Shown: positions 6,994 through 37,715 of the stretch, in pieces
How the letters are laid out: every line of letters begins with the position of its first letter
How positions within the stretch are numbered: position 1 is the stretch's first letter
Source of the DNA: a virus
Reading direction: 5' to 3' (one strand)
Length of the DNA stretch: 37,715 nt
Virus record (IMG/VR): IMGVR_UViG_3300020053_000894
Span: 1 to 37,715 of that record
The notes under the pieces: generated by a model
Seen by the model: the letters and a program-made list of their open reading frames with translations, nothing else
Databases searched by the model: none
What the model was told of the DNA's origin: nothing
Program-made: the position numbers and the translations under genes

Positions 6994-6997
6994 ATTT

Positions 6998-8241: not shown

Positions 8242-8242
8242 C

Positions 8243-14502: not shown

Positions 14503-14508
14503 AACTTC

Positions 14509-14865: not shown

Positions 14866-14866
14866 A

Positions 14867-16258
14867 TTACTTAATTTTAAATAATTCGTATTTTTTTCTT
14901 GGTTTCCAATTTTCAAATGTTCCTTCGATTCCATCTACTAAAGTTTGACACATATTTGTGTTTACTAACCCCATTTCACCTTTGAACATCTCTCTACCTT
15001 TTAAACCAGCTTCTTTCAGTTCTGATTTGGGTTTTTTGTACATTTCTTCCATAGCAGTTGCCACATCATATACATCAATCTTATCATCCCAAATATATGG
15101 GGTAGGAACTGACCCTGCCATAGTTTGGGCTCTACTCCAAACTGGTCTTGCCCATTCTCCCCAAGTTAGTTTATCTTCCCAATCTCTCCATTTGTGAAGT
15201 GAACCGATTTCTTTGTAATCTTCAGCAGTTAGAAGTTCTCCAGTATCTTTAAATCTGAATCCACATTGGTCTTGTAATCCACCTGTAACATTTACAATAA
15301 TAGGTGTACCACTCATTACCGATTCTGCAGTTGTTAACCCAAACCCTTCATTACCTGCAATGTTAATTGTACAATCTGCTATATTATAAAGATAATTCAG
15401 TTCAGCTACGCTTCTTCGTTTATCTGAAAATATTACATTACATTCGGGTGCTAATGTCTGATGAACTTTTGGTAAATCAGTACCATTTTGGTCAGTTGGT
15501 TGGGTATGCATTACTAATGCAACTTTCTTAGCTTTTTCTTCACCTATTCTATTACAAAAATCCTTAAATGCCATAATCACATCCGAAGGTTGTTTTCTAC
15601 GAATATTACGATTTGACCAGAAGAATACATAATCGTACTCATTTCCAGCTAATATTTCATCTCTAAATGGTTTAGGTACATCAATTGGTTTGTATTCATT
15701 TGGATTAATACCATGAGGAACATAAGATACCTGCCAATCTTTATGAGGTTTCCAAGTTGGTTTATCAGTTCTACTTGTCAAACGAGATACAATACCATAA
15801 GTTTGTCTTGAAATACAACCAATCCAATCACAACTCTCATAATAATTTCTATTGTAAAGTGGGTCTGGTAAATCATCCCAAATTGCATAGAATAAAATAG
15901 GAATGTTTTGCCTTAACTCATGTTCCATTTCATACAACCAAATCCAATATCTTGGGTCAGTAAAGTGAAGAATAGCATCAGGCCTTTCAGTATTTAGTAA
16001 TTGTCTAACCAAATCAGCGTTACCATATCCAGTCCACGGAAGTATTTTAACCGATGCATCTTCGACACCAGTTTGTTTTTGAATATCAGCCGATACATCT
16101 AAAATTTTACCTTTATCAGGGTGGTTAATTGCTGCACCTACTTGGAACCAATCGTATTTATCAACAGTTCCCATTACCAACGCTTTACTCATAGTGGCGA
16201 TACCACTCGCCATTCTTAAATCATCTGAAAGAAGAAGAATCTTTTTCTTTTTACTCAT
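14867..16258 (-). CDS. GT4-type glycosyltransferase
   Basis: A 463-residue GT-B protein: KKKILLLSDDLRMASGIATM for the N-terminal Rossmann domain, YDYVFFWSNRNIRRKQPSDV at the start of the C-terminal domain and GNEGFGLTTAESVMSGTPII as the E-x7-E donor site. The basic NIRRKQP element is typical of phage-coded GT4 enzymes. It is the first of the contiguous glycan genes, 22 bases downstream of the ribbon-helix-helix gene, and two bases before the NTF2-like gene. Donor and acceptor unknown; DNA, virion protein or polysaccharide are all possible acceptors. Confidence 0.85.
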   Translation of the reverse strand: MSKKKKILLLSDDLRMASGIATMSKALVMGTVDKYDWFQVGAAINHPDKGKILDVSADIQKQTGVEDASVKILPWTGYGNADLVRQLLNTERPDAILHFTDPRYWIWLYEMEHELRQNIPILFYAIWDDLPDPLYNRNYYESCDWIGCISRQTYGIVSRLTSRTDKPTWKPHKDWQVSYVPHGINPNEYKPIDVPKPFRDEILAGNEYDYVFFWSNRNIRRKQPSDVIMAFKDFCNRIGEEKAKKVALVMHTQPTDQNGTDLPKVHQTLAPECNVIFSDKRRSVAELNYLYNIADCTINIAGNEGFGLTTAESVMSGTPIIVNVTGGLQDQCGFRFKDTGELLTAEDYKEIGSLHKWRDWEDKLTWGEWARPVWSRAQTMAGSVPTPYIWDDKIDVYDVATAMEEMYKKPKSELKEAGLKGREMFKGEMGLVNTNMCQTLVDGIEGTFENWKPRKKYELFKIK

Positions 16259-24810: not shown

Positions 24811-26571
24811 TTATTTCCAAACACTATTAACAAATTTACGAGTGTTTTGATATGCCTCTTGCCAATCATCATCCATCATTAAATCATGCGTATTCATAAA
24901 TTGTTTAATGGAGTTTAGATATTCCAAAGAGTATTCCGATGGAATAAAGTTTCGTTTGTTTGAATGAAATCTATTATCACCTGAAAATTGTAGGAAGAAA
25001 TTAGAAATATCTTTACCATCTTTTCCAGAGTTTTTATGTCCTTTATCAAACCCAACACCATTTGATATATTAATTGTTACTATTTTAAATTCAGATTTAG
25101 AACCATTATTACGGTCAATCATAGAAATATCACCATTTGGATTTAGTGAGGTATCTAATGATTGTTTAGCCATAGAAATCAAAGTACTCTTTACATCACT
25201 AATAGTTTCATAAGGTAATTTTTTAAGCTCTTCTTCCAATATTGAATAGAATTTGTTATATCTCCCATTGGCACCAGTACCAGCTTTAATTAAAGCGTTT
25301 TGTACTTTTGATTCCAATATTAAATCAGAAGCCATTTGTAACACATAACCAGTTACATTTAATACCGTTTCCTTCGTTGGATTGGATGATGATAATTTTA
25401 TATAATTATCAATCAAATGAGCTATCATTAGTGCAGAATCCACTTTAGTCATAGATAAATCATTGATGTTGGTAGTTGATGAACCATTATGCTTATTAAT
25501 AACCTGCTCTATGTTATTTTCAAATGTATTAATATCTACACATTCAGATATCCAATTAAGAAATTCTTTACCAACACTAGCTTCATTTTCAGCATCAGTT
25601 TTATTAGTAGCTATTACATAATCCTCATACTGCTTTATTCTTCTCTTTTCAGCTGAACAATCAAATCCACGATAAATATCCAAAATACCACCTGTTCTAG
25701 TTTTCCTAGAACTATTCCATAACATAATGATTTCTTCTTCAAATCGTTCCATCTTATCCCCTACTTTGTTATGGCGGCTAAACATAGTTTTTTCACCCTG
25801 AAATAGTTCATCTCCCTCTACCAGTGAATAGATAGTATCCATATAATCATTACCAACACCATATTTATCATCTAATTTTATCTCCGCTGATAACATTCCC
25901 TTTTGGTGAGTTGTCCAAGAATCCTCACTATTATTGATGCCCAATATTTCTCTACGATGCATTGCACGATTTGGATATACTTTTATTTGAATCGGAATAT
26001 TGGTATTTGATTGCTTCTTACATACCGATGATGGTATTACCTCAGATAAAGATAATTCAGTTATTTTTTTATCTTTTAATTTATTACTTAAATTTTCTGC
26101 AATCAATTTAGTGCTAGCTGTTCTATCATCTTCAGGTAGTTCAGAATCTAATTGTCTTTGTACTTTTTTCCATATTGATTTTGACCAAGACTTTTCATAG
26201 TGAAAGAACAATATAGTACCCTCATGCCCTCTATCTTCTGCTTGTAGAGCGATAGTATCATCTAACATACCCAATGGTAAGAAGTTGAAAGATGAATTAC
26301 CACCCATAATACGAAGTGCGTAAGATAATTTTTTAGGTAATTTTTTAGATGTATCTAATATAGATGGGTCTCTATTTGATTGAGAGTTTTGTATATCACC
26401 AACTTCCAATTCACCTTGATATTTTTTGGGATACATTTTTAAATCTCCCCATGTAATGGTACAACCATCAAAGTGTGTTTCGTTATTATGAACACACCAA
26501 TCCAAATAGGTATCTCTAATATTTGATATCAATTCTTTAAATTGTTTTTTAGTAACTTTTGGAAAATCCAT
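24811..26571 (-). CDS. Large protein of unknown function (586 residues)
   Basis: I do not recognise this protein. It begins MDFPKVTKKQFKELISN, is soluble, and has no signal peptide, membrane span, Walker motif or clear catalytic signature. A possible core at residues 85-135 alternates strands and turns (ALRIMGGNSSFNFLPLGML, GTILFFHYEKS). A long helical and polar middle carries Asp, Glu and Lys clusters, and residues 470-540 are rich in Ser, Asn, Gly and Lys. It has its own promoter and a 5' leader hairpin, and it leads the operon with a glycosyltransferase and DNA polymerase. A role linked to DNA synthesis or modification is inference from position only. Confidence 0.75.
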   Translation of the reverse strand: MDFPKVTKKQFKELISNIRDTYLDWCVHNNETHFDGCTITWGDLKMYPKKYQGELEVGDIQNSQSNRDPSILDTSKKLPKKLSYALRIMGGNSSFNFLPLGMLDDTIALQAEDRGHEGTILFFHYEKSWSKSIWKKVQRQLDSELPEDDRTASTKLIAENLSNKLKDKKITELSLSEVIPSSVCKKQSNTNIPIQIKVYPNRAMHRREILGINNSEDSWTTHQKGMLSAEIKLDDKYGVGNDYMDTIYSLVEGDELFQGEKTMFSRHNKVGDKMERFEEEIIMLWNSSRKTRTGGILDIYRGFDCSAEKRRIKQYEDYVIATNKTDAENEASVGKEFLNWISECVDINTFENNIEQVINKHNGSSTTNINDLSMTKVDSALMIAHLIDNYIKLSSSNPTKETVLNVTGYVLQMASDLILESKVQNALIKAGTGANGRYNKFYSILEEELKKLPYETISDVKSTLISMAKQSLDTSLNPNGDISMIDRNNGSKSEFKIVTINISNGVGFDKGHKNSGKDGKDISNFFLQFSGDNRFHSNKRNFIPSEYSLEYLNSIKQFMNTHDLMMDDDWQEAYQNTRKFVNSVWK

Positions 26572-26599
26572 AACTTATTGTTTTAGGGTTTTAACATTT

Positions 26600-26612
26600 G
26601 GGGAACATCCCC
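26600..26612 (-). promoter_or_regulatory. Short hairpin in leader of the 586-residue gene
   Basis: GGGGA-TGT-TCCCC on the minus strand forms a G/C-rich stem with a 3-base loop between the promoter and the ATG at 26571, in an otherwise very A/T-rich region. No T-run follows, so a terminator is unlikely. It could be an mRNA-stability or translational control element, or an operator. Confidence 0.5.
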
Positions 26613-26628
26613 GCTCAATTTTATGATA

Positions 26629-26660
26629 CTAATATAAGAATAATTTTTTAATTATCCAAA
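26629..26660 (-). promoter_or_regulatory. Bacteroidota-type promoter for 586-residue gene, glycosyltransferase and polymerase
   Basis: TTTG (26657-26660), 20 bases, then TATATTAG (26629-26636) on the minus strand; the -7 element differs from TATATTTG by one base. The spacer has the same A/T palindrome as the clamp promoter. Confidence 0.75.
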
Positions 26661-26661
26661 T
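26638..26661 (-). repeat. 24-base direct repeat copy 2 (promoter spacer)
   Basis: Identical to bases 21123-21146, covering the -33 element and the palindromic spacer of this promoter. Confidence 0.85.
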
Positions 26662-26677
26662 ATTTTTTCACTTTTTT

Positions 26678-27484
26678 TTACCAAAAATTTATTTCGTTAC
26701 TTTCCTCTGGTGGATAGGTTAAATGATGTACTACTTCAGTATTATAATCATTCAACTCTTTTGGATAAGGTCGAATCTCATGCTTCAACCTTTTCATCAA
26801 ATCCTTTTTCTCTTTTTTATTTTGAGCAAGAATCTGAATGTATCTATGTTTTGGAGGTTCTTCTCTTCTCCAAAATTCTTTATATCCCTCTTTTCCGATT
26901 TCTTTTTTGAGATGTTCTAAGTTACCACTTCCCCAATTGTTGAATACAGTTCGAGAGTGAATCCAATCGTATGGGTCATTAGATAGTGAAATACCCCAAT
27001 TTGGCATCAGAGCGATATCAGTATTCAATCCCTGATAAATCCAATTGGTTGCTTTGTAAATCCCACCTAAGTGCCCTTGTCCATTATTAGCATAAGATAG
27101 AAGAACTTTGATGTTGGTATCGTTATCCTTTAACCATTGGAAGGTTTTACCTAATGCACAACTCTCAATGTTTGAACCATACCCATCATCAACATACAAT
27201 CGAGTAAGTTCTAAGATGTTATCTTTTGTTAATCCCTCACAAACTGAGGTGGATGCTTTTGCTCCTACTGGGAATCCATATACAGCTACTCCTACCAACT
27301 TTTTATCATTACCAAAGATATCTTTTTCATCCATTTGATGATAGATACCTAAAGCGTACCTACATGCAGTCCAAGCATGAGTGTAATGCTTTTTGATAAT
27401 CATATCTTTAGCGATAGATTTAGCTATTGGTGCAATACTTACTTTACTAGCATCACAATATTTCTTTCCTTCTACTTTACCCAT
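26678..27484 (-). CDS. Mom-like DNA adenine modification protein, second paralog
   Basis: A 268-residue Mom-family protein. Phage Mu Mom converts adenine to a methylcarbamoyl form that blocks restriction. Visible elements: IIKKHYTHAW near residue 33, KLVGVAVYGFPVG (62-74), ILELTRLYVDDGYGSNIES (90-108) and SYANNGQGHLGGIYKATNWI (130-149). Compared with its neighbour, the SYxDP Asp-Pro is replaced by Asn-Asn. The C-terminal HRYIQILAQNKKEKKDL...PYPKE segment is shared with the first paralog. The start is an ATG overlapping a 52-residue ORF. Confidence 0.8.
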   Translation of the reverse strand: MGKVEGKKYCDASKVSIAPIAKSIAKDMIIKKHYTHAWTACRYALGIYHQMDEKDIFGNDKKLVGVAVYGFPVGAKASTSVCEGLTKDNILELTRLYVDDGYGSNIESCALGKTFQWLKDNDTNIKVLLSYANNGQGHLGGIYKATNWIYQGLNTDIALMPNWGISLSNDPYDWIHSRTVFNNWGSGNLEHLKKEIGKEGYKEFWRREEPPKHRYIQILAQNKKEKKDLMKRLKHEIRPYPKELNDYNTEVVHHLTYPPEESNEINFW

Positions 27485-27630
27485 TCGTTGAAAGCTTGTT
27501 GGTATGCATCTACTTTTCTCATTTTGGGATTACTTCCCATAATTTCAGAAGCAGTTTTCATTACTTCTATTCTTAATCCATAAGATGATGATTCCATTAA
27601 GATTTCTTCAATTTCTTCTGATTCAGTCAT
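27472..27630 (-). CDS. Small helical protein of 52 residues
   Basis: A short frame starts at the ATG at 27628-27630 and ends with TAG at 27472-27474, overlapping the Mom paralog start by 13 bases. The product begins MTESEEIEEILMESSSYGLR and continues to VDAYQQAFNEWVK, with two amphipathic helices and the A-Y-x-x-A-[FY] pattern seen in small phage proteins. A promoter lies 18 bases upstream, so it is the first gene of that unit. The function is unknown; the short ATG-to-stop frame, promoter and overlap make it likely to be real. Confidence 0.7.
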   Translation of the reverse strand: MTESEEIEEILMESSSYGLRIEVMKTASEIMGSNPKMRKVDAYQQAFNEWVK

Positions 27631-27647
27631 AATACTACTAATTTTTA

Positions 27648-27679
27648 CAAATATACTAAATTATTTTGTAATTTCCAAA
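27648..27679 (-). promoter_or_regulatory. Bacteroidota-type promoter before second Mom unit
   Basis: TTTG (27676-27679), 20 bases, then TATATTTG (27648-27655) on the minus strand. The upstream part lies inside the 3' end of the first Mom gene. TTACAAA in the spacer pairs with TTTGTAA at the -7 element to form an inverted repeat. Confidence 0.8.
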
Positions 27680-28428
27680 TTTATCGGGTCCATTCTATGA
27701 ATTTCTTCCACAAATTGTTCATTTTCTTTAGGATAGGGGAATGATGGATGTTTAATATTGTTTAACAACTTCCTTCTTTCACCACCTTTGGCTAAAATGT
27801 ACACATATCTATGTTTTCTTGGATTTTTCTTTATCCAAAAAGTAGATGATATCATTTTTTGTATTTCTTTGGGGTCATTTGTTCCAAATTTCACATAAGA
27901 AGTTCTTCCGTGGTGCCAATCACCACCTGCTTCCCATCTGAAATCCCAACTATCATTGAATCTTAGTTTGTTACCTTGATACAACCAATTAGTTGCTTGG
28001 TAAATTGTACCACAATGCCCTTCTTTAGGGTCTGAATATGAAATAAGTGCTTTTATTTGTGGTACATTCTCTCTTAACCAATCAAAAGTTTGACCTAAGA
28101 ACCAACTCTCTATATTAGAACCATATCCATCGAATACGAATAATCGAGTTAGTTCTAATACTTCAGTTCTTTCCAATAAAGGGGATATTGATTGTCCAGC
28201 ACTTCTACCAATTGGGTCTCCATAACAAGCTACTCCAATTAGTTTATCTTCTACATTATCAAAAAAAGGATGTTCTTCTACATCAGAGGTAAATAAACCA
28301 ATTGCGTAAGATACCTTTGTCCACAATCCACTATAATGGTTGTTAACAATGATATCCTTCGCTACCGATTTGGTTATAAGACGAATGGAAAGTTTAGAAG
28401 TATCACAATATGTTTTCTCCTCTTTCAT
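27661..28428 (-). CDS. mom: Mom-like DNA adenine modification protein, first paralog
   Basis: The 255-residue protein has the Mom motifs: VNNHYSGLW (28-36), KLIGVACYGDPIG (62-74), VLELTRLFVFDGYGSNIES (90-108) and SYSDPKEGHCGTIYQATNWL (130-149). In Mu, Mom modifies adenine in the phage genome to a methylcarbamoyl derivative and so protects DNA from many restriction enzymes. It shares an ATGA overlap with the small HTH gene upstream. The conserved SYxDP is intact here, unlike the second paralog, so this copy is the likelier active form. It sits after NrdA and thioredoxin. Confidence 0.85.
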   Translation of the reverse strand: MKEEKTYCDTSKLSIRLITKSVAKDIIVNNHYSGLWTKVSYAIGLFTSDVEEHPFFDNVEDKLIGVACYGDPIGRSAGQSISPLLERTEVLELTRLFVFDGYGSNIESWFLGQTFDWLRENVPQIKALISYSDPKEGHCGTIYQATNWLYQGNKLRFNDSWDFRWEAGGDWHHGRTSYVKFGTNDPKEIQKMISSTFWIKKNPRKHRYVYILAKGGERRKLLNNIKHPSFPYPKENEQFVEEIHRMDPINLEITK

Positions 28429-28628
28429 AAACTACCAGACCAAAATTCATTTAGGTGTGTCCAAGTTTTATTTTTGACAATCTTAATGATATTGGCTGGG
28501 GATACCTTATTGTTTCGAGCTATCACTCTTACATTTCGGTGTCCCATTTTCCATAACCTTCTTATTTGTATAACCTGCTCATCCGTTAATTTTGCAGAAG
28601 GATGAGTCTGTCCTCTTAGTATTGGCAT
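28425..28628 (-). CDS. Small helix-turn-helix protein
   Basis: The 67-residue protein starts MPILRGQTHPSAKLTDEQVI and contains a helix-turn-helix of the type seen at the end of HNH homing endonucleases (AKLTDEQVIQIRRLW, then IARNNKVSPANIIKIVKNKT, with TW at the end of the repeat). No HNH nuclease domain precedes it, so it is a free-standing DNA-binding module or a remnant of a homing endonuclease. It overlaps Mom by four bases (ATGA) and could regulate the Mom genes. Confidence 0.65.
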   Translation of the reverse strand: MPILRGQTHPSAKLTDEQVIQIRRLWKMGHRNVRVIARNNKVSPANIIKIVKNKTWTHLNEFWSGSL

Positions 28629-28631
28629 TCC

Positions 28632-28895
28632 TTATAAAACTTCGTTTAGCGCATTCTTATATGCTAACTCCGATTGTGCACCTGTAAATCTTTCTACCAA
28701 TTCTCCGTTTTTTTCAATAACAACGGTTGGAATTGAACGAACTGAATACTTAGCTGCTTCATCTTGGTTTTCATCCACGTTAATATACGAAAATTTTACG
28801 GAATTTCCAAATGATTCTTCTAATTTTTCAAATGTTGGTTTTAACATCCTACAAGGACCACACCAATCTGCTTCGAATTTTTTAATTTCTATCAT
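28632..28895 (-). CDS. Thioredoxin
   Basis: An 87-residue minimal thioredoxin with WCGPC active site at residues 11-15 and the cis-Pro region RSIPTVVIEKNG. The first strand is shortened, so the protein is about 20 residues shorter than typical thioredoxins. It lies between NrdA and the HTH/Mom genes and is the natural electron donor for the phage ribonucleotide reductase, whose C-terminal CxxC needs re-reduction. Confidence 0.9.
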   Translation of the reverse strand: MIEIKKFEADWCGPCRMLKPTFEKLEESFGNSVKFSYINVDENQDEAAKYSVRSIPTVVIEKNGELVERFTGAQSELAYKNALNEVL

Positions 28896-28920
28896 AGCTT
28901 TTATAATTTAATGTTTAATA

Positions 28921-30627
28921 TTATCCCTCACAAGCAACACAATGTAAATCATTCAATCCAAGTTTCTTTCTAGCGAAAGCTTGTGCTGAATTCATTGAGT
29001 GTTGGTAGTAAAGTGTTTTAACTCCTAACTTCCATGCATCAATAAGGAGTTTGTTTACATCCTTAGTTGGCATATCAGGTGCAATCATTAGATTCAAAGA
29101 TTGTGATTGGTCAATGTAATCCTGTCTGATTGCTGCTTGGTTAATAATAGTAGATTGATTGATTTCAGCAAAAGTTCTGAATACCTCTTTTTGTATAGGA
29201 GTTAAGAACTCTAAATGCTGAACCGAACCATCATTTTGTTTAATACTATTCCAAGTTTCTTTATCATTTTTACCCAACTCCTCAAGTAATTTTTCTAAGA
29301 TTGGGTTTTTGATTGTTACTTTCATTTTAGCAACATCTTTTACATAACAATTTGACCAAATTGGTTCAATTGATTGTGATACCTGTCCTAAGATAAATGC
29401 TGAAGATGTGGTAGGTGCAATAGCGTTCAAAGTTACATTTCTTCTACCATATCCTTTGAGGTATTCAGGTTCACCATATTTTTCAGCCATCTCTTCGGAT
29501 GCTTTATATGATTTTTCTTTGATTAGTTTAAATACTTCAACATTTAATCTTGCCGCATCTCTACTATCAAATGGTAATCCTTTTGATTGAATAAATGAGT
29601 GCCATCCTAAAACACCTAAACCTAATGCTCTTTGTCTTTTAGCGAAGTTGTATGCTTTTTCTAAGTAGAAGAATGCTCTTTTACCTTCAATTGTACCATT
29701 ATCTCTAATAGCTTCAATCTTAGTAAGGAATTCGGTTACAACCGCATCTAAGAAGTAAGTCATCGTTTCAACTGCATCAGTATCCTTCCACTCATCATAG
29801 TGTAGAACATTCATAGATGAAAGTACACAAACAAATGATTCTTCCTCTGAGTTATGAAGAGCGATTTCAGAACATAGATTAGAGTTATAGATTTTAGCGT
29901 TTTTATCTTTATAAACATCCACAGTATTTTTGTTCATCGTATCTGAGAACATAATATATGGATATCCGATTTCACCTCTTCGTTGGATTACTTTTGCCCA
30001 AGCAGCTCTTTTTTCAGTATCACCAGCAATCATTTCTTCCATAAACTCATCAGAAACAGTTACCGCATGTGTAAGGTCTTGGATAGTTGCACCTTCAGTT
30101 CCAATTTCTAAGAACTCCATAATATCTGGATGTTCGATTGGTAAGTATGGTGAGAATCTACCTCTACGAGTTGAACCTTGTGAAATATTATCTACTACAC
30201 TTTGAAAGAGATTCATAAAGTGAACAGCGCCAGGTGCATGTCCATTATCAGTAATTTCAGCACCTCTACCTCTGATGTTACCAAAGTAACCAGAAGTTCC
30301 GCCTCCCATTTTACTCATTTCACCAACTTCAGCTTGAGTATATAGAATTGATTCAATGTTATCACCAATATTAGAACCAAAACAAGAAACTGGTAAACCT
30401 CTTTTCTTACCAAAGTTTGCCCATACAGGTGATGAAAGTGAATACCACCCTCTACCCATATAATCAATAAACTTATCAGCAAATCCTTCGATTTCTAATA
30501 GTTTTTCTGCATGGTTTGCAATTGTTTTAATTCTATCTAAAGGTTCTTCACCTTCACTTAAATACCCCCTTCTTAAAAAGGTAACGGATTCTTCGTTAAT
30601 CCAATCAAATAATTTTCTATCGCTCAT
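28921..30627 (-). CDS. nrdA: Ribonucleotide reductase large subunit (class I), no ATP-cone
   Basis: 568 residues. Active-site parts are present: redox C82 (PVSCFG) and C267 (FVCVLSS), the N250-x-C252-x-E254 triad (NLCSE), the paired YY at about 540 for radical transfer, and a C-terminal CVAC (563-566) for thioredoxin-like reduction. It starts directly in the catalytic N-terminal region and lacks the ~90-residue ATP-cone that usually provides activity regulation. The cone is found on NrdB instead. It reduces NDPs to dNDPs for phage replication, in an operon with thioredoxin and MazG. Confidence 0.95.
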   Translation of the reverse strand: MSDRKLFDWINEESVTFLRRGYLSEGEEPLDRIKTIANHAEKLLEIEGFADKFIDYMGRGWYSLSSPVWANFGKKRGLPVSCFGSNIGDNIESILYTQAEVGEMSKMGGGTSGYFGNIRGRGAEITDNGHAPGAVHFMNLFQSVVDNISQGSTRRGRFSPYLPIEHPDIMEFLEIGTEGATIQDLTHAVTVSDEFMEEMIAGDTEKRAAWAKVIQRRGEIGYPYIMFSDTMNKNTVDVYKDKNAKIYNSNLCSEIALHNSEEESFVCVLSSMNVLHYDEWKDTDAVETMTYFLDAVVTEFLTKIEAIRDNGTIEGKRAFFYLEKAYNFAKRQRALGLGVLGWHSFIQSKGLPFDSRDAARLNVEVFKLIKEKSYKASEEMAEKYGEPEYLKGYGRRNVTLNAIAPTTSSAFILGQVSQSIEPIWSNCYVKDVAKMKVTIKNPILEKLLEELGKNDKETWNSIKQNDGSVQHLEFLTPIQKEVFRTFAEINQSTIINQAAIRQDYIDQSQSLNLMIAPDMPTKDVNKLLIDAWKLGVKTLYYQHSMNSAQAFARKKLGLNDLHCVACEG

Positions 30628-30639
30628 AATTGTAACTTC

Positions 30640-31920
30640 TTAAAATAAATCGTCTTCTGTAATCGATTTTTGTTTTTTACTATAATTTATACTTCTTTTG
30701 TTAAAGAAATCGGTATGTTTTGTGGTAAGGATTTCATCATCAAACCACTCAGTTGTTTCTAATAAAGATTCATCAATACTGAAAACACTATCGATACCAA
30801 TTGATTTTAATGACCTGTTGAATCTATCTTTAATAAATTCTAAGGTTTGTTCTTTGGTTAGGAAATCTAAATCTCCTTTTTCAAACATCCAATCTACGAT
30901 TTCAGCCTCAGCATCGTATGCATCTAAAGTTGCATCAATAATATCTTCAACTAAATCATCAGTCCACCAATCAGGATTCTCAGCTTTGATTGTGTTAACC
31001 AAATCAAATCCAAATTCAGCATGAATGTTTTCTTCTTTTGATGTTGCTTCAACAGCGTTACTAATACCTTTCAATACATTCTTATGTTTGTTGAAAGATA
31101 ACATCACTAAGAATTGTGAAAATAGTGATACATTCTCAATAAACATAGAGAAAAGTATTACTGATTCAAAGTAATCTCTATTTTCAATAGAACGAGCTCC
31201 ACTAATAGATTTCTCTAAATATTTGATTCTTCTACGAATCGCAGGTACTTCCATTAAGTTTTCAAACTCATTGTTTAATCCTAAAACCTGAATTAGGTTT
31301 GAATATGCATCAGCATGTCTAACTTCCGATTCAGCGAAAGTTGCTCCAACATTTCCAATCTCAGGTTTTGGCATTTTTTTGTAGATATCTCCCCAAAAGG
31401 TTTTTACAGCGATTTCAATTTGGGATATTGCTAACATAGCTCTTTCTACTGCGGTTCTTTCCTTTTCACTCAGATGTACTTTAAAGTCTTGGATATCTGA
31501 TGTGAAGTTGAACTCAGTATGAACCCAATAAGAGTGTCTAATAGCATCAACATACTCCACTAATTGTGGATATTCGTAAGGTTTAAGATTTACTCTTTTC
31601 TTAAAGATGTTTGGTTTGTTTTTTGAGCGATATAGAATGTATTCTTTTGCTACATTGTTTAATCCAACATCCATAAGTTTGTTTTCTACAACATCACCAA
31701 TTTCATCTACTGTTACAGTAGTGATGTGTTCGTATTTAAACAAACTTCTTTCCACAGTTCTTGCAACCTTTTCTGCTACTTCCTCATCTACCCTATCAAT
31801 GGATTCCATTGCCTTTAGGATAGAATTTTGAATTTTTTCTAATTTAAAACTCTCTTTTTCTCCACCTCGTTTAGTTACGAAGTGAACATCTTCCGCTGTA
31901 GTATCTACAAATATACTCAT
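30640..31920 (-). CDS. nrdB: Ribonucleotide reductase small subunit with N-terminal ATP-cone
   Basis: Residues 12-103 form an ATP-cone (VTKRGGEKESFKLEKIQNSI, ... EYILYRSKNK), normally found on NrdA. From about residue 130 the di-iron domain follows: D142, E199, H202 with radical Y206 (EVRHADAY), then FIENVSLF and EENIHAEFG with the remaining Glu and His ligands. This arrangement was described in the flavobacterium Leeuwenhoekiella blandensis, where dATP acts through the radical subunit. It overlaps MazG by 4 bases. Confidence 0.95.
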   Translation of the reverse strand: MSIFVDTTAEDVHFVTKRGGEKESFKLEKIQNSILKAMESIDRVDEEVAEKVARTVERSLFKYEHITTVTVDEIGDVVENKLMDVGLNNVAKEYILYRSKNKPNIFKKRVNLKPYEYPQLVEYVDAIRHSYWVHTEFNFTSDIQDFKVHLSEKERTAVERAMLAISQIEIAVKTFWGDIYKKMPKPEIGNVGATFAESEVRHADAYSNLIQVLGLNNEFENLMEVPAIRRRIKYLEKSISGARSIENRDYFESVILFSMFIENVSLFSQFLVMLSFNKHKNVLKGISNAVEATSKEENIHAEFGFDLVNTIKAENPDWWTDDLVEDIIDATLDAYDAEAEIVDWMFEKGDLDFLTKEQTLEFIKDRFNRSLKSIGIDSVFSIDESLLETTEWFDDEILTTKHTDFFNKRSINYSKKQKSITEDDLF

Positions 31921-32228
31921 AGTTCTTCTTCTTTGATAAATGTACCATTTACGGTCTTTCCCTTCCTATCTTTGATTTCATTCCAAGCTGATTCCAAACA
32001 TTCGGTAGGTTCTAAACCTAATTGTTTTGCTAAAATAATAACTGTAACTAATATATCACCGATACCATCGATAACTTCATCAGTCTTTTTTCCTTTTAGG
32101 ATTGCTCCCATTGTTTCACCTAACTCCTCCATAATCTTCATAGATTGTTTTGGAGCATTATCAGGAACAAGTATCCCCTTGTCATCAGCCCATTGGGTGA
32201 TGTTTTCAATCAATTCATCAAATGTCAT
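31917..32228 (-). CDS. MazG-like nucleoside triphosphate pyrophosphohydrolase
   Basis: The 103-residue protein has the MazG helices: SMKIMEELGETMGAILKGKK supplies the EExxE metal site and DEVIDGIGDILVTVIILAKQ the second acidic motif (E/D-x-x-D). MazG-type enzymes hydrolyse NTPs or (p)ppGpp-like or non-standard nucleotides; phage copies are thought to tune the host nucleotide or stress state. One domain only, shorter than bacterial MazG (about 260). It lies in the nucleotide-metabolism operon and overlaps SET and NrdB by 4 bases each. Confidence 0.85.
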   Translation of the reverse strand: MTFDELIENITQWADDKGILVPDNAPKQSMKIMEELGETMGAILKGKKTDEVIDGIGDILVTVIILAKQLGLEPTECLESAWNEIKDRKGKTVNGTFIKEEEL

Positions 32229-32635
32229 TTTAATATTGTATCGTTTAAATTGTAGGTTCCTAAAATTTCTTCACCAACTTTGATTGGCTTGATAACTTTT
32301 TTAGTGATTGAATCGAAGTTACCATTTTTTTCGGCTGTGTTTGTATGCATTATTGGATTAGCCAAATTCCAATAACAATCGTTAAATAATCTAAACCAAT
32401 AAACTGGGTATTCGGGTTTATTAAGATACCCTTTTAAGATTAATTTTTTAGTGTAGTGGGGTAATTCCTCAAATTTATCCCTTTCAATGGTATAAATTCG
32501 AGTATCACCTTTCCACACTTCAAAAAGAGATTCACCAACTTCAATATCTCTTAAAGCGAATGTACCAATTCCATGTATTGGAGAAGGTGCTATATCGGTT
32601 TTGACACAATGTTGGAGATACTCAATTACATCCAT
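32225..32635 (-). CDS. SET-domain protein lysine methyltransferase
   Basis: The 136-residue protein is a bare SET domain. The N-terminal SET motif is SPIHGIGTFALRDIEVGES (18-36), with G-x-G for SAM binding; residues 93-105 NPIMHTNTAEKNG correspond to the N-H-S...N region, and GEEILGTYN (121-129) to GEE-x-x-x-Y-N with the catalytic Tyr. It resembles the small SET domain of chlorovirus vSET and of free-standing bacterial SET proteins. It begins 5 bases after the stop of the histone H1-like gene, overlaps MazG by 4 bases, and may methylate that histone-like protein. The substrate is inferred only. Confidence 0.8.
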   Translation of the reverse strand: MDVIEYLQHCVKTDIAPSPIHGIGTFALRDIEVGESLFEVWKGDTRIYTIERDKFEELPHYTKKLILKGYLNKPEYPVYWFRLFNDCYWNLANPIMHTNTAEKNGNFDSITKKVIKPIKVGEEILGTYNLNDTILK

Positions 32636-32640
32636 TACGA

Positions 32641-32811
32641 TTATTTATTTTCTTCAACAGAAGCTTTTCTGTAATCGGTTACTAATTTTTTAATTTCACC
32701 AATTGCCTTTCTAGCTCTTGATTTACCTGCTTTAGTAGTTGCAGTGTGATTTTCTTCAAACTCAACGAAGAGTTCTTTGATTTGTTCGAATAATTCTTGT
32801 GATGTTGCCAT
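32641..32811 (-). CDS. Histone H1-like DNA-binding protein (Hc1 type)
   Basis: A 56-residue frame runs from the ATG at 32809-32811 to TAA at 32641. It begins MATSQELFEQIKELFVEFEE and contains TTKAGKSRARKAIGEIKKLV (25-44), the K-A-x-x-x-R-x-RK core of Bacteroidota/Chlamydia Hc1 (histone H1-like) proteins, followed by a lysine-containing tail (YRKASVEENK). Two helices, the second basic, should bind DNA without sequence specificity, possibly compacting phage or host DNA. It is immediately upstream of SET and downstream of a terminator with its own promoter candidate. Confidence 0.75.
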   Translation of the reverse strand: MATSQELFEQIKELFVEFEENHTATTKAGKSRARKAIGEIKKLVTDYRKASVEENK

Positions 32812-32819
32812 AGATAATA

Positions 32820-32827
32820 TATTTATA
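32820..32827 (-). promoter_or_regulatory. Possible T4-late-type promoter before Hc1 gene
   Basis: TATAAATA on the minus strand, the T4 late -10 consensus, lies 8 bases before the Hc1 ATG. No Bacteroidota -33/-7 pair is visible here. The match is exact but short and the region is A/T-rich, so chance is possible. Confidence 0.35.
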
Positions 32828-32840
32828 AATTAATTAAATT

Positions 32841-32872
32841 AAAAAACCGAACACCTTCGATTGCTGCTCGGT
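32841..32872 (-). terminator. Rho-independent terminator after helicase
   Basis: On the minus strand ACCGAGCA (32865-32872) pairs with TGTTCGGT (32846-32853; one G-U pair) across an 11-base loop, followed by a T-run (32841-32845) and more A/T. It lies about 95 bases after the helicase stop and ends that operon before the Hc1 gene. The rest of the 155-base gap (32873-32966) is A/T-rich and shows no other gene. Confidence 0.75.
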
Positions 32873-32966
32873 GATTATAACTATTGTATATATTGAAAAA
32901 AAATTAAGTTCCAATATTAAATTTCTTACTTTTTTGTTTTTTGATATTTTGTACAAATTTTGATAG

Positions 32967-34325
32967 TTACCCAAAGTTTTCAACATACTTTTTATGAAGT
33001 AACTTTTTCTCCATTTGTTCTCCATTTGCAGATTCTTTTTGTGTAATAATTCCATCTGATGAATTGCCATCATAAACCTCAATGAATCCAGTATTGGTAT
33101 CCATCTTAGATGGGAAAGTAATTCCATCGGGTCCAAATCGGTTTTTCATAATATGGAATCTTGCAGTATTGTTCAATTTATCCTTACTCTTTCTACTGAT
33201 ACTCATAATGAAATCAGCGTTCATTACCTTAGCGTAGGAATCTGCTACCTTATCCGCTTCAATAACTTCAGAATCAATTGCTGAACGATTGGTTTGGGAT
33301 GCTGTCCAAATAGGAATACCCAATTCACCACTAATACCTCTCAACTCAATGTAAACACCACCTTGCTCACCATAGGTTGAATCGGATTTATTAGTGTGAG
33401 ATAATAACAAATCAGCATAATCAATAATTATCAAATCAGGTTTATTTCCTGCTGCTGTCATCTTCTCAATATGGGATTCTAATTTTTTAGCAGATATACC
33501 TTTTGGTGGGAAATACTTAATAAGAAGTTTTCCACTCAATCTATTGATTTTCTCTTTTACTTCTTCTTTCTTATCTTTCACATCTGCTGATGGGATTTGT
33601 GTAAATACAGTATCGTATCTCTGTCCCACATAATGTTCTGATAATTCCAAAGAGTAATGTACTACATTTAATCCTCTCTTAACAGCTGCTGCTCCGATTG
33701 CACATAGTACCCAAGTTTTACCAACACCAGAAGGTGCTACTGCTACTCCTAATTCGCCAGGTCCCAAACCACCATCCATCAATTCATTAATACAATCCCA
33801 ACCAGTTGGAACTGTACTTCTATCAACTTCGTTAGTTCTTTCTTCAAAATCTAAAAGGTAATCGTGTCCCATATCTGAATCCACTCCTACCTTCATTGCT
33901 TTATCTACTAAATCTTTGATTCTATCATAGTTACCAGCTTTTAGTAAATCAACTGAACTAACAATAGCTTGTTTTAGGTTTTGGTTGATGCAAAATGAAG
34001 AAAACTCTTTCTTTACATAATCCAAATCAGAATCACCAACTTTGGTAAAAACTAATTTTAATTGCTCTACTACACTTTTCTGAAACCCTCTATCATCTAA
34101 CTTCGAAACTTCGGATTTAAAAACGTCTAATGTTGGAGATTTCTTAAATTCATCGTAATATGAAACAATCTCCTCTGCTATCCATTTATTAGCCTCAGCT
34201 TCAAAAAACTTTGGATGTATAATCTCACTAAGAGTATCCAATAAACGAACATCCGTAATCAAAGAAGAAAGTACCTTCGTTTGAAAGGATTGTCCGTATT
34301 TTGAAAGAGTATCTATATTTTGCAT
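32967..34325 (-). CDS. gp41: Replicative DNA helicase, gp41/DnaB-like
   Basis: 452 residues (T4 gp41: 475). The N-terminal helical domain (1-150) is followed by the RecA-like ATPase: APSGVGKT (197-204) Walker A, PDLIIIDYADLL as Walker B, and SQTNRSAID with a sensor-type Gln. It forms a hexamer that unwinds the lagging-strand template at the fork, normally with the gp61 primase, which is not in this window. It has its own promoter and a 95-base 3' region ending in a terminator. Confidence 0.95.
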   Translation of the reverse strand: MQNIDTLSKYGQSFQTKVLSSLITDVRLLDTLSEIIHPKFFEAEANKWIAEEIVSYYDEFKKSPTLDVFKSEVSKLDDRGFQKSVVEQLKLVFTKVGDSDLDYVKKEFSSFCINQNLKQAIVSSVDLLKAGNYDRIKDLVDKAMKVGVDSDMGHDYLLDFEERTNEVDRSTVPTGWDCINELMDGGLGPGELGVAVAPSGVGKTWVLCAIGAAAVKRGLNVVHYSLELSEHYVGQRYDTVFTQIPSADVKDKKEEVKEKINRLSGKLLIKYFPPKGISAKKLESHIEKMTAAGNKPDLIIIDYADLLLSHTNKSDSTYGEQGGVYIELRGISGELGIPIWTASQTNRSAIDSEVIEADKVADSYAKVMNADFIMSISRKSKDKLNNTARFHIMKNRFGPDGITFPSKMDTNTGFIEVYDGNSSDGIITQKESANGEQMEKKLLHKKYVENFG

Positions 34326-34350
34326 TTACCTATAACCTAATTTGATTTCA

Positions 34351-34381
34351 CAAATATAAGAAAAATTTGTGATATATCAAA
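34351..34381 (-). promoter_or_regulatory. Bacteroidota-type promoter for helicase
   Basis: TTTG (34378-34381), 19 bases, then TATATTTG (34351-34358) on the minus strand. TCACAAAT in the spacer and ATTTGTGA covering the -7 element make a perfect 8-base inverted repeat, a candidate operator. Confidence 0.8.
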
Positions 34382-34382
34382 A

Positions 34383-35429
34383 TTATTTTGTAATAATATT
34401 TTGAAAGGTTGAATGTAACCAATCATTTATATCTCTCCAATTTTGGAGAATTTTGTATTTTTGTCCAACTCTAAGAAAATCTAATTTCTTAAATTCAACA
34501 TCATCTTCATTAAATCTATCTAAGATTTTTAACTTCTGATTTGTTGGGATATGGGGTTCATCTAACTCCATTAACCTCTTATTCATAAGAAGTTGGTCTT
34601 TTGCTTTTAAGATATCATCATATAATTTGATTTTACCTTGCTTATCTTCACACAATTGGAAGAACTCCTCATGTGTTATCAATCTATCCTCAGAAAGTTC
34701 AGGAAACCTCTTTAAAAGAGTTTTAATACCACATCCTTTGATGCCTGGTATGTTATCTGATTTATCACCATCCAATGTTCTATATAATAAAAGATTCTCA
34801 GGCCAAATTCCATACTCATCAAACACCATCTGTCTATCGTATAATTTCTTTTTAGTAGGTGAAAATACTTTTACTTTATCAGAAACTAACTGAAGAAAAT
34901 CTTTATCAGTTGAAACAATAACAACTTCATTACCTAAATCCGATTCATTGTGTTTAGTTAGATATGCTATTGTATCATCTGCTTCAATTCCATCATAAAT
35001 CATAGTCTGAACAGGTAGATAATCTAAAATATCATTTAACCAAATGAATTGTTGTTTCATAGATAATCTTTCCTCTTCCTCATCCATCATACCTTGATAT
35101 TGACGGTTTACTCTAAATCGGTTCTTTTCTCTACCAGCTTTATATCCTTCGTGGATTTTCTTTCTGGATTGAGAACCATCTTTACCATCAAAGGTTACGA
35201 TACATCGGGTTGGATTAAATTCTCTAATTTGGTATCCAATAGATTTGAGGGAGCCAATCACCCCACCCGTATGGTCACCATCCTCATTCATTGTGGGGTT
35301 GGTTGTCCAACTTCGGATGAAGGTGTTTAGTCCATCAATAATCAGAACTCTACTATTTCTCTCACGAAGGTGATTCGTTTCTCGTTCCTGCTCAACTTCG
35401 TTTAGAATGTTTTTATAGAGGTCTTTCAT
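34383..35429 (-). CDS. 5'-3' exonuclease (FEN/T4 RNase H-like)
   Basis: 348 residues of the FEN fold: D32 in LIIDGLNTF, TFDGKDG with D81, EADDTIAYL with E149, D151 and D152, STDKDFLQL with D175 and D177, and DGDKSDNIPGIKGCGIKT with D220 and D222 and the helix-hairpin-helix. These Asp/Glu bind the two metals. T4 RNase H of this family removes RNA primers from Okazaki fragments. The first 25 residues are a helical extension. It shares one base with the small gene upstream and precedes the helicase promoter. Confidence 0.9.
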   Translation of the reverse strand: MKDLYKNILNEVEQERETNHLRERNSRVLIIDGLNTFIRSWTTNPTMNEDGDHTGGVIGSLKSIGYQIREFNPTRCIVTFDGKDGSQSRKKIHEGYKAGREKNRFRVNRQYQGMMDEEEERLSMKQQFIWLNDILDYLPVQTMIYDGIEADDTIAYLTKHNESDLGNEVVIVSTDKDFLQLVSDKVKVFSPTKKKLYDRQMVFDEYGIWPENLLLYRTLDGDKSDNIPGIKGCGIKTLLKRFPELSEDRLITHEEFFQLCEDKQGKIKLYDDILKAKDQLLMNKRLMELDEPHIPTNQKLKILDRFNEDDVEFKKLDFLRVGQKYKILQNWRDINDWLHSTFQNIITK

Positions 35430-35674
35430 TATGTAGTTGTTGTTGAATCAGAAAAATAATTGTGAATACCTTCACCGAAATAATTATCGATAGTTTGTAA
35501 TCTATCTTCTGCATCACATAGTTTGGATAATGCCTCTTCTGCGTTTTTATAAAAATCCTCAGTTGAGTGGTCTCCAATACCCACTGCTTTGTTCTCCAAC
35601 AACTCCAAAGTAAGGAGTGCTTTAGCTCTATCTGCTTTCGCAGATGCTTGTAACATTTCTTTTAATTTACTCAT
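35429..35674 (-). CDS. Small helical protein between UvsX and exonuclease
   Basis: An 81-residue protein of unknown function, MSKLKEMLQASAKADRAKAL to the end DSTTTT. Three amphipathic helices are likely; residues 1-30 are Lys/Ala-rich. It is translated with the exonuclease (1-base overlap) and follows UvsX by 16 bases. In T4 the UvsX partner UvsY (137 residues) is also small and helical, but the sequence is not recognisably UvsY, so no function is given. Confidence 0.75.
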   Translation of the reverse strand: MSKLKEMLQASAKADRAKALLTLELLENKAVGIGDHSTEDFYKNAEEALSKLCDAEDRLQTIDNYFGEGIHNYFSDSTTTT

Positions 35675-35690
35675 AACTTATTATTACTTT

Positions 35691-36809
35691 TTATTCTACC
35701 ACCTCAGCTCCCTCAGTATCTAACTCATGTGCTTCGATATCTTTAGAATCTGATTTGTATTGTAAGATAGTTGCTTCGCAAATCTTTTTGTAGATTTGTT
35801 CTTTAACATCTTCTCTTTCTTCCATCAAATCAATGAAATCTTTGGATTGGAATTTAATTTCCTCTCCAGTTTCCGTATCAATGTAAGTGTACCATGCACC
35901 AGCCTGCTTCACCAACTTATTTTCCTTCATTACTCCTAACCAAGAACCGAAGTTATCGATTCCTCTATCAAAGAATATTTCGAAATCAGCTGCTCGAAGT
36001 GGTGGTCCCATTCGGTTTTTGATAACCTGACATCTAACTTTCATACCAATGGTTTTATCTTGCCCATTGACTTTTTGTTTGATTTGTCCCATATTCTTCA
36101 AACGAAGTCTAACTGATGCATGGAATGCAAGAGCTTTTCCTCCAGAAGTAGTCCACGGGTCACCAAACATAGCGTTCATTTTCTGTCTTAATTGATTAGT
36201 GAATACTAAGGTGATTTTTTGCCTACCAATTAAATTGGTAATTTTTCTCATCGCCTTTGAGATAATAATAGCTTTATCAGTAGCGTATCCATCTTTACCA
36301 TAATCAGCTGCCAACTCATTCTTAGTTGAAGCTGCAGCAACTGAATCTACTACGATTGTTACTAACTTATCCTTTTGTGTGGTTCTTACCTTTTCAATGA
36401 TTGTTTCAGTAAATTCGAAAATTTGTTCTACTGAATCAGCTGATACATAAAGTAGTTTTGCTACATCTACACCAATTGCTTCTAAGAATTCTCTACTTAC
36501 CGCAGTTTCAGTATCAATTAGAACCGCAACACCACCTTGCCTTTGTGTTTCAGCAAGGAGGTGTGCAGATACTAATGATTTTCCACTTTGTTCTAAACCA
36601 GTTACTTCGGTAATTCTACCAACAGGAAGTCCACCATAAGGGCGATTCGAAATGGCAACATCTAACATAGCACAGCCAGTTGATATCCATCCATCCACAT
36701 TTGTGGGTGCATCATCCTCTCCTAAGAAGAAGGCAACCTTCTGGTCTTTGTTTGTTTTGTTTAGCTCGGAAGCTAGTTCCGCCGCTAAGTCCATTTCTTT
36801 TTTTGCCAT
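35691..36809 (-). CDS. uvsX: RecA/UvsX-like recombinase
   Basis: 372 residues. Walker A is GLEQSGKS (71-78), close to RecA GPESSGKT; VTIVVDSVAAA is Walker B, and TNQLRQKMNAMFGDPWTTSG with GGKALAFHASVR is loop L2 and the following RecA core. It therefore looks more RecA-like than T4 UvsX (GPSKSFKS). The C-terminus is acidic (EAHELDTEGAEVVE), as in RecA and UvsX, where it regulates filament formation. It lies between SSB and exonuclease, the recombination-dependent replication set. Confidence 0.93.
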   Translation of the reverse strand: MAKKEMDLAAELASELNKTNKDQKVAFFLGEDDAPTNVDGWISTGCAMLDVAISNRPYGGLPVGRITEVTGLEQSGKSLVSAHLLAETQRQGGVAVLIDTETAVSREFLEAIGVDVAKLLYVSADSVEQIFEFTETIIEKVRTTQKDKLVTIVVDSVAAASTKNELAADYGKDGYATDKAIIISKAMRKITNLIGRQKITLVFTNQLRQKMNAMFGDPWTTSGGKALAFHASVRLRLKNMGQIKQKVNGQDKTIGMKVRCQVIKNRMGPPLRAADFEIFFDRGIDNFGSWLGVMKENKLVKQAGAWYTYIDTETGEEIKFQSKDFIDLMEEREDVKEQIYKKICEATILQYKSDSKDIEAHELDTEGAEVVE

Positions 36810-36819
36810 TTAGTGTAAA

Positions 36820-37644
36820 TTATCCGTTAAATAAATCATCAAATGCTGATGCAACATCATCCATTTTCTTTTTCTCTTCAGTAGTTACCTCATTTGAAGG
36901 TGCTGCAGCTGGTGCCGTAGTAGCTTCAGTTTTAGGTGCTGATGGAGTTGATAGAGTTTGTTGAGAAACACTCTCTTCACCTTCTTCAGCAGTTGGATTT
37001 AACCAACCTTCTAATACTGATTTTAATTCATCATAAGATAACTCTGAATAGATATCAGTAATGTTACTTTGAGATTCCATAAAGTTTTGGATGTTAGTAT
37101 CACCCTCTGCCAATGGAGTTACATTTGGTTTAACACGGATAGTAGTTACAGGATAAGAAGTTCCTGCATCTTCAGCTGATACATACTCAATAGTAATATC
37201 TCTACCATTATTAGGGTCAGTAATATCACCATAGTCTGGGTCAGCAATGTAACCTAAGATTTCCTGATAAACAGTTTTGCCGAATCCCCAAAACTTAACA
37301 CCTTCTGATTCCTCTCCTCTTACGAGTACAGGTACAAAAGTTCTTAATTTTGGCTCCATTTTCTTCGCTGCTTTCCAATCTTCTTTATCACCCATTCTTT
37401 TCAACTTTTCAGCAAACTCAACGATTGGGTCTGGTCTACCAAATGAACTTGGAGACAAGTACGTTTTGTTGTTGATGTTGTAATGGAAGAATAGTTCAAT
37501 GAAAGGATTTTCAGGAGAAAATTTGTAAGGAACGATTCTGACTTGATGTTTACCCGGTGTGGGTTTCCACAGATTTGATGTTCTGTTTGAAGTGTTTTGT
37601 AGTTTGTTCAGTCTACCTCTGATTGCGCTTAAATCTAGTGCCAT
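36820..37644 (-). CDS. gp32: Single-stranded DNA-binding protein, gp32-like
   Basis: 274 residues. The N-terminal basic region (MALDLSAIRGRLNKLQN) is the cooperativity segment of gp32, WKPTPGKHQVRIVPYKF opens the OB fold, and the tail is a Ser/Thr/Ala/Glu-rich linker (TEATTAPAAAPSNEVTTEEK) ending in VASAFDDLFNG, the acidic partner-binding tip typical of gp32. No cysteine is present, so the T4 zinc site (three Cys, one His) is absent. It coats ssDNA at forks and during UvsX recombination. Confidence 0.93.
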   Translation of the reverse strand: MALDLSAIRGRLNKLQNTSNRTSNLWKPTPGKHQVRIVPYKFSPENPFIELFFHYNINNKTYLSPSSFGRPDPIVEFAEKLKRMGDKEDWKAAKKMEPKLRTFVPVLVRGEESEGVKFWGFGKTVYQEILGYIADPDYGDITDPNNGRDITIEYVSAEDAGTSYPVTTIRVKPNVTPLAEGDTNIQNFMESQSNITDIYSELSYDELKSVLEGWLNPTAEEGEESVSQQTLSTPSAPKTEATTAPAAAPSNEVTTEEKKKMDDVASAFDDLFNG

Positions 37645-37689
37645 AATTTTTAAATTTTAAAGTTTTAATTGTTTTATTGGTTTTATTAT

Positions 37690-37706
37690 GGTGTCTTTCC
37701 TACACC
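37690..37706 (-). promoter_or_regulatory. Small hairpin upstream of gp32 gene
   Basis: GGTGT-AGGAAAG-ACACC on the minus strand forms a 5-bp stem about 46 bases before the gp32 ATG. There is no T-run after it. It could be a leader element for gp32 mRNA (T4 gp32 has a translational pseudoknot) or the end of the upstream gene outside the window. Weak evidence. Confidence 0.3.
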
Positions 37707-37715
37707 TTATATAAA

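Follow-up and report, generated by a model that had tools for sequence, protein, structure and literature searches.

Hc1-like and SET-domain genes at a phage ribonucleotide reductase locus: a shared neighbourhood more than a partnership

The genes for a small histone H1-like (Hc1) protein and a small SET-domain protein, which adjoin one another in the viral DNA analyzed here, share a neighbourhood more than a partnership, and in related phages the pairing is not constant and the two genes are mostly not next to each other. From sequence comparison we lean slightly towards the SET protein being an accessory and exchangeable protein-modifying enzyme, which would have another or a broader protein target and not specifically Hc1.

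The analysis was done on a stretch of 37,715 nucleotides (IMG/VR record IMGVR_UViG_3300020053_000894, positions 1 to 37,715), called the window below. A sequence-only reading had described a 56-residue Hc1-type protein followed after 5 bases by a bare SET domain, and both genes and the gap between them were confirmed on the minus strand. The same reading had proposed a dedicated two-gene system for chromatin writing, and this proposal was not supported: the SET gene moves, fuses and is replaced, its co-occurrence with Hc1 is inconsistent, no Hc1 lysine is specific to the presence of SET and the phage Hc1 is a hairpin only.

The locus and its two proteins

The features of the locus, all on the minus strand, are given below.

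32967..34325, minus: DnaB/gp41-type replicative helicase, upstream of Hc1 (PF03796 68.1 bits; phrog_19 268 bits)
32876..32894, minus: conserved 19-base AT-rich block AATATATACAATAGTTATA, found upstream of Hc1 with or without SET
32846..32872, minus: predicted hairpin and then a T run, just after the block (RNAfold -12.5 kcal/mol on the near-identical locus L002)
32641..32811, minus: Hc1-like gene, 56 aa, ATG start (PF07432)
32225..32635, minus: SET gene, 136 aa, ATG start (PF00856)
31917..32228, minus: MazG-like nucleotide pyrophosphohydrolase (PF03819 23.9 bits against a cut-off of 22; PF12643 27.0 against 27)
30640..31920, minus: NrdB with ATP cone, ribonucleotide reductase small subunit (PF00268 196.2 bits; PF03477 70.2 bits)
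28921..30627, minus: NrdA, ribonucleotide reductase large subunit (PF02867 329.5 bits)

The Hc1 and SET genes stand at the head of an operon with the order Hc1-SET-MazG-NrdB-NrdA, in which the SET stop and the MazG start share 4 bases and the NrdB gene overlaps the MazG stop. Genes of the gp32, RecA/UvsX, 5'-3' exonuclease and DnaB/gp41 types were recognised upstream of Hc1 by profile searches, so that T4-like replication genes lie on one side of the pair and those for ribonucleotide reductase on the other. Over 11.5 kb (positions 26228-37715) the window shares 99.97% identity with a segment of a viral record of 252,603 bases, which points to a jumbo phage, and the locus belongs to a group of T4-like, probably jumbo, phages.

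Elsewhere in the window two adjoining Mom-family DNA-modification genes are found on the minus strand (26678-27484 and 27661-28428; PF25680 155.2 and 149.6 bits), and a 586-aa ORF at 24811-26571 (minus) has no Pfam match above cut-off. An FkbM-type methyltransferase (4971-5579, minus, 62.4 bits) lies inside a run of minus-strand ORFs from 827 to 16258; it alone was searched, and its neighbours resemble glycosyltransferase or sugar genes by eye.

The AT-rich block upstream of Hc1 is near-invariant as AATATATACWATARTTATA (window 32876-32894, minus), with TTTT before it and CAC after it. Within 3 mismatches it was found in 54 of 56 distinct cassette upstreams against 0.47 expected by shuffling, in none of 8 upstreams of Hc1 in other contexts and at a single place in the window, where 0.39 matches are expected by chance. 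Each of five large records had a single exact match, placed some 0.1 kb upstream of where Hc1 matched. A longer form of the block, searched exactly, gave 93 matches, with Hc1 less than 200 bases downstream in every one of the 80 loci examined. The block is unexplained and may be an operator, an origin or a special promoter. The hairpin predicted just after it is variable in sequence among relatives, 3 of 14 sampled upstreams have no structure, and a terminator scan found no standard terminator and left this hairpin uncalled. The T4-type late promoter motif TATAAATA lies upstream of Hc1 in the window but was rejected as the signal there: of 65 distinct upstreams just 2 carry it in the nearest 60 bases, and 4 copies were counted in the whole window against 7.4 expected.

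Both family assignments made in the sequence-only reading were supported by profile search. The Hc1-like protein matches PF07432 with E 1.9e-9 and 37.7 bits (cut-off 23.5) over profile positions 2-56 of 57, and the SET protein matches PF00856 with E 9.6e-5 and 23.2 bits (cut-off 22.4) over positions 1-105 of 105; neither has an NCBIfam match or a convincing PHROG match. The Hc1-like protein is a confidently predicted two-helix hairpin (helices 4-21 and 27-55; AlphaFold2 pLDDT 96.0), and the SET model (pLDDT 83.9) has two weak parts, residues 91-110 and the C-terminus.

The composition of the Hc1-like protein is 8 Lys, 3 Arg and 10 acidic residues, with a net charge of +1 and a pI of about 8.0, and 55 distinct relatives have net charges from 0 to +6 with a median of +1. 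The search by sequence for a related solved structure gave nothing convincing, with one match at E 0.61. Chlamydial Hc1 is described as having an N-terminal dimerisation part and a lysine-rich C-terminal DNA-binding domain (PMC2848022), and the phage protein ends with the hairpin, the lysine-rich tail being absent. On the predicted model it looks like a near-neutral helical hairpin that resembles the dimerisation part at the N-terminus of chlamydial Hc1, and its likely role would be in the structure of the nucleoid or of replication, either by itself or together with partners that bind DNA. It also looks like a component separate from SET, with its own conserved upstream element. This element and the missing DNA-binding tail argue against a plain transfer of the chlamydial compaction model to the phage protein.

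In the SET protein, G22/G24 (GxG), the motif asparagine N99 and the catalytic-type tyrosine Y128 are invariant in 27 of 27 aligned relatives, all of which match PF00856 at E<=1. In SET domains the GxG binds SAM, the Asn belongs to the conserved motif and the Tyr is catalytic. The canonical NHSxxPN, present in the 5 aligned canonical phage SET sequences, is absent from the window protein, and most of its subfamily in the 27-sequence alignment has NT...GN. By the NG86 method dN/dS was 0.13-0.30 in 8 pairs of SET genes, well under 1 in every pair, and 0.06-0.46 in 4 pairs of Hc1 genes; both genes look to be under purifying selection. The nearest solved structures to the SET model are SET proteins, with TM of about 0.3-0.4 and poor superposition, the first being vSET (3kma; Foldseek rank 1, TM 0.32, VIA Z 6.8 over 55 residues). 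The poor superposition leaves the fold weakly confirmed by the model, and the sequence evidence for it is better.

The window SET is probably, judging from its conserved residues, an active small SET-fold protein lysine methyltransferase; we infer its methyltransferase activity, the timing of its expression and its target. It seems very improbable that it is a SET-like protein without methyltransferase activity, such as a pseudo-enzyme or a binding module: the weak Pfam score, the change of NHS to NT and the weak superposition would suit such a role, but the residues invariant in all 27 relatives and the dN/dS values of all 8 pairs argue against it.

vSET of the chlorella virus PBCV-1 is likewise a stand-alone, virus-encoded SET domain of similar size, and it acts on host histone H3. 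It differs in being a protein of a eukaryotic virus, with which only 55 residues of the model align, and in that the phage form is without NHS. Canonical small SETs are also known from the phages P-SSM7, P-RSM6 and Pelagibacter phage Kolga (PF00856 42.0, 44.9 and 40.1 bits); they carry NHSxxPN and form a subfamily other than that of the window SET. A tblastn search with the window SET matched no phage record, and two short patterns of its subfamily found none in bacterial genomes, which is a weak negative. The PHROG of the P-SSM7 SET is phrog_28741, listed as of unknown function; it matches the proteins at L205:2498-2797 (212.3 bits) and L187:1459-1809 (73.6 bits), which also match PF00856, and this shows an annotation gap for phrog_28741. 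The second of these (minus strand, NHSETPN) is a second, canonical SET beside a gene resembling thymidylate synthase by eye, and its record is that of L164, which also has a window-type SET.

Co-occurrence of Hc1 and SET among relatives

The pairing was surveyed in three samples of viral contigs, in which many loci are near-identical assemblies. The first was anchored on Hc1 and took the best 80 of 424 relatives in viral contigs, with 50 intervals complete from Hc1 to nrdA, 22 cut off and 8 in another context. SET was present in 30 of the 50 complete intervals and stood directly after Hc1 in 16; thinning left 32 complete intervals, 19 of them with SET and 10 with SET directly after Hc1.

The second sample was anchored on SET and kept 80 of 81 relatives. 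Hc1 was the nearest recognised upstream gene in 22 of these, confirming that the pair is found elsewhere, and was within 2.5 kb in 68. The remaining 12 loci had no Hc1 nearby (7 with room for it, 5 cut short), and a search of their whole records, which are 4-105 kb long and may be fragments, gave Hc1 in 0/12 against 9/9 positive controls. By a count from the locus table, mazG, nrdB or nrdA was the nearest recognised neighbour on at least one side in 70 of the 80.

The third sample was anchored on the non-coding element upstream of Hc1 (80 of 93 exact matches, 52 complete intervals, Hc1 less than 200 bases away in 80/80). As it is independent of the similarity of either protein to the window, it is the fairest for SET, though the element was defined on these cassettes. 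Here SET was present in 23 of 52 complete intervals, adjoined Hc1 in 6 and was missing from 29. Absence of the pairing from related phages, named as a refutation in the sequence-only reading, applies half-way, and the consistent co-occurrence expected of a dedicated Hc1-SET system was not found.

In the records tested from outside the group, Hc1 and SET are seldom found together. The canonical phage SETs (NHSxxPN) have at least 592 relatives in viral contigs, and in the flanks of the best 80, up to 4 kb, nrd genes were recognised in none, thyA in one and Hc1 in one. This last locus, L218, has a canonical SET (3956-4339) and a divergent Hc1-like ORF (5835-6050, 31.7 bits with a profile built for this analysis), separated by 1.5 kb and surrounded by unrelated genes. 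In the phage collection, 6 of 12 matched records, which have canonical SETs or weaker relatives, were searched for Hc1 (P-RSM6, Kolga, P-SSM7, MW202744, MH319765 and LR756501; the other 6 include three apparent duplicates), and it was found in 0/6. Conversely, 27 records with Hc1 and no SET close by (23 viral contigs, Flavobacterium phage immuto, LR745206, Lak-A1 and S-SRM01) gave SET above cut-off in 0/27 against 2/2 positive controls; Lak-A1 has a match below cut-off (19.7 bits, one TAG inside), far from Hc1.

A scan of genome contigs with phage-derived patterns gave at least 13 Hc1 relatives (51-67% in the best segment). Among the matches listed, 10 are titled Neomarinimicrobiota or Marinimicrobia, 2 simply "bacterium" and 1 Deltaproteobacteria (L190, a 3.9-kb contig); the patterns being phage-derived and only listed matches being counted, this says little about which phyla carry Hc1. 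In the 12 bacterial genomes checked for both genes, with L190 left out, Hc1 was present in 12/12, as a single copy in 11 and as two copies in the remaining one, and SET was present in 0/12. Two Hc1-like ORFs also occur in the locus L078 (2062-2263 and 4977-5168, about 2.7 kb apart), the second copy being weak (30 bits).

PF07432 histone H1-like proteins in aquatic jumbo phages have already been published (PMC12619734). The Moraphages of that paper are large aquatic phages, for most of which Bacteroidota hosts are predicted, and their four genomes with terminal repeats encode PF07432 proteins; a term search of its main text gave 0 occurrences of 'methyltransferase' and 0 of 'PF00856'. The main text of a paper on jumbo phages (PMC7824862) holds no 'SET domain', 'histone' or 'Hc1', and among the best-ranked papers of the literature search, which largely excluded subscription journals, none was found on an Hc1-SET pair in phages.

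Mobility of SET and its candidate targets

The SET gene occupies different positions within the cassette. The orders with SET are Hc1-SET-mazG-nrdB-nrdA, Hc1-nrdB-SET-mazG-nrdA, Hc1-nrdB-SET-nrdA, Hc1-nrdB-mazG-SET-nrdA and Hc1-nrdB-methyltransferase-SET-nrdA, and several cassettes have no SET. For the gp41 tree on which these states were placed, 128 rows, in which the same contig appears more than once, were thinned to 40; all rows were chosen to bear Hc1, so the tree has no bearing on Hc1 loss, and at least one row (L082) was labelled from a contig cut after SET. The Hc1-SET arrangement takes 2 changes on this tree and the SET-less state 7, at least 4 of them forced by well-supported branches, and all six labels together take 14 changes against 24.9 when shuffled.

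Fusions and domain exchange were also found. In L150, L163 and L176 the SET is the C-terminal part of an ORF with an N-terminal class I methyltransferase (by Pfam in L150 and L163), and the stand-alone methyltransferase of L167 matches guanidinoacetate methyltransferase (GAMT) with E 9.3e-7. L290-L294 carry this methyltransferase in that nrdB-nrdA slot too, with a 2OG-Fe(II) oxygenase-like domain as its fusion partner (by Pfam in L290, L292 and L293); taken alone, this domain passes the Pfam cut-off in one of three cases (27.1 against 27; the others 21.9 and 22.6), and its search by sequence gave no solved relative. In L143-L148 the SET lies in one ORF of the 420-aa type with DUF6065, on records where Hc1 was absent; L143, the only one scanned with Pfam, gave 237.7 bits for DUF6065 and 22.0 for SET against a cut-off of 22.4, and L144-L148 have the same ORF span. 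The DUF6065 part had one solved match by sequence, at E 0.29. In L147 the DUF6065-SET ORF follows a gene resembling, by eye, the DNA polymerase of the window. The L147 locus also has a Mom gene (129 bits).

That one methyltransferase is fused to either SET or an oxygenase-like domain suggests more strongly than anything else that modifying enzymes gather at this locus, and the Hc1 neighbour is not necessarily their target. These enzymes (SET, the GAMT-like guanidino methyltransferase, the 2OG-oxygenase-like hydroxylase and the DUF6065 fusion), which mostly lie at the Hc1-ribonucleotide reductase locus, might even be interchangeable writers of protein side chains with one target in common, for instance the Hc1-like protein or a nucleoid or replication protein of the host. 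We consider this improbable; if true, phages would encode a bacterial equivalent of histone-code writing. Another proposal is that the substrate of SET and the fused methyltransferase is a peptide or a small molecule and not a folded protein. GAMT is a small-molecule enzyme and the alternative partner is 2OG-oxygenase-like, which would agree with this, but most SET domains whose function is known methylate lysines of proteins, and we hold it to be very unlikely.

Methylation of the phage Hc1-like protein by SET, which would tune its effect on the host nucleoid or the phage DNA, is unlikely in our judgement, though several observations favour it. The two genes are only 5 bases apart in the window, and the proximity of Hc1 in most SET-anchored loci together with the L218 pair, in another context, keeps a link to Hc1 conceivable. 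The lysines were counted in distinct 56-residue Hc1 proteins only, 32 from SET-bearing and 14 from SET-less cassettes. K27, K35, K41, K42, K49 and K56 are present in 32/32 and 14/14, Lys 12 is commoner without SET (12/14 against 19/32) and Lys 30 occurs in 14/14 SET-less against 29/32 SET-bearing proteins; among these 46 proteins no lysine is kept only where SET is present. One identical Hc1 protein occurs in both SET-bearing and SET-less cassettes. An always-conserved lysine may possibly be methylated, but the absence of a SET-specific lysine, the identical protein in both states, the missing lysine-rich tail, the frequency of Hc1 without SET and the existence of SET without Hc1 all argue against Hc1 as the specific target.

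The chlamydial precedent, taken as established in the sequence-only reading, is itself divided. cpnSET of C. pneumoniae is reported to bind and methylate Hc1 (PMC3980110), whereas NUE of C. trachomatis gave no methylation of full-length Hc1 at the concentrations tested and preferred mammalian histones (PMC2904774); according to its authors, Hc1 in molar excess could not be tested and earlier work had used truncated Hc1 fragments. As in the phage, a SET protein and an Hc1-family protein are encoded in one genome of Chlamydia (PMC3980110). The phage differs in that Hc1 and SET share an operon and in that its Hc1 is a 56-aa hairpin without the lysine-rich C-terminus.

The other products of the operon were considered as targets also. 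SET might modify NrdA, NrdB or MazG and so raise the supply of dNTPs, in line with the frequency of mazG, nrdB or nrdA as nearest neighbours and the overlap of the SET and MazG genes in the window. In Prochlorococcus phage P-SSM7, moreover, the canonical SET stands one small ORF after nrdA-nrdB, and another canonical SET stands beside a thyA-like gene (by eye, in L187). A general link of phage SETs to nucleotide-metabolism genes, hinted at by these two cases, failed in the 80 canonical SET loci, and we regard a target within nucleotide metabolism as quite improbable.

The reading of SET as an accessory, exchangeable enzyme draws on its conserved residues and purifying selection, its changed presence and position, the fusions, the replacement by an oxygenase-like domain, the mostly failed co-occurrence and the SET-independent lysines of Hc1. 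SET would ride in the replication and dNTP-synthesis operon of T4-like phages, and its place there would bring about expression together with Hc1, MazG and NrdB/NrdA; the target of SET would probably be a host or phage protein present during replication. Against this accessory role stand the closeness of Hc1 in 68 of 80 SET-anchored loci and in L218, the richness of Hc1 in conserved lysines, the SET score barely over the Pfam cut-off, the weak parts of the SET model and the oxygenase assignment, which reaches the cut-off in one domain of three.

The locus offers natural versions of itself (SET alone, SET with the GAMT-like methyltransferase, the oxygenase-like domain instead, or nothing), through which the target can be sought by like-for-like comparison. 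SET proteins are common in viral contigs, yet phrog_28741 is still listed without a function. If these proteins are active, protein lysine methylation is a means by which many phages take over their hosts during infection, one that is seemingly little studied.
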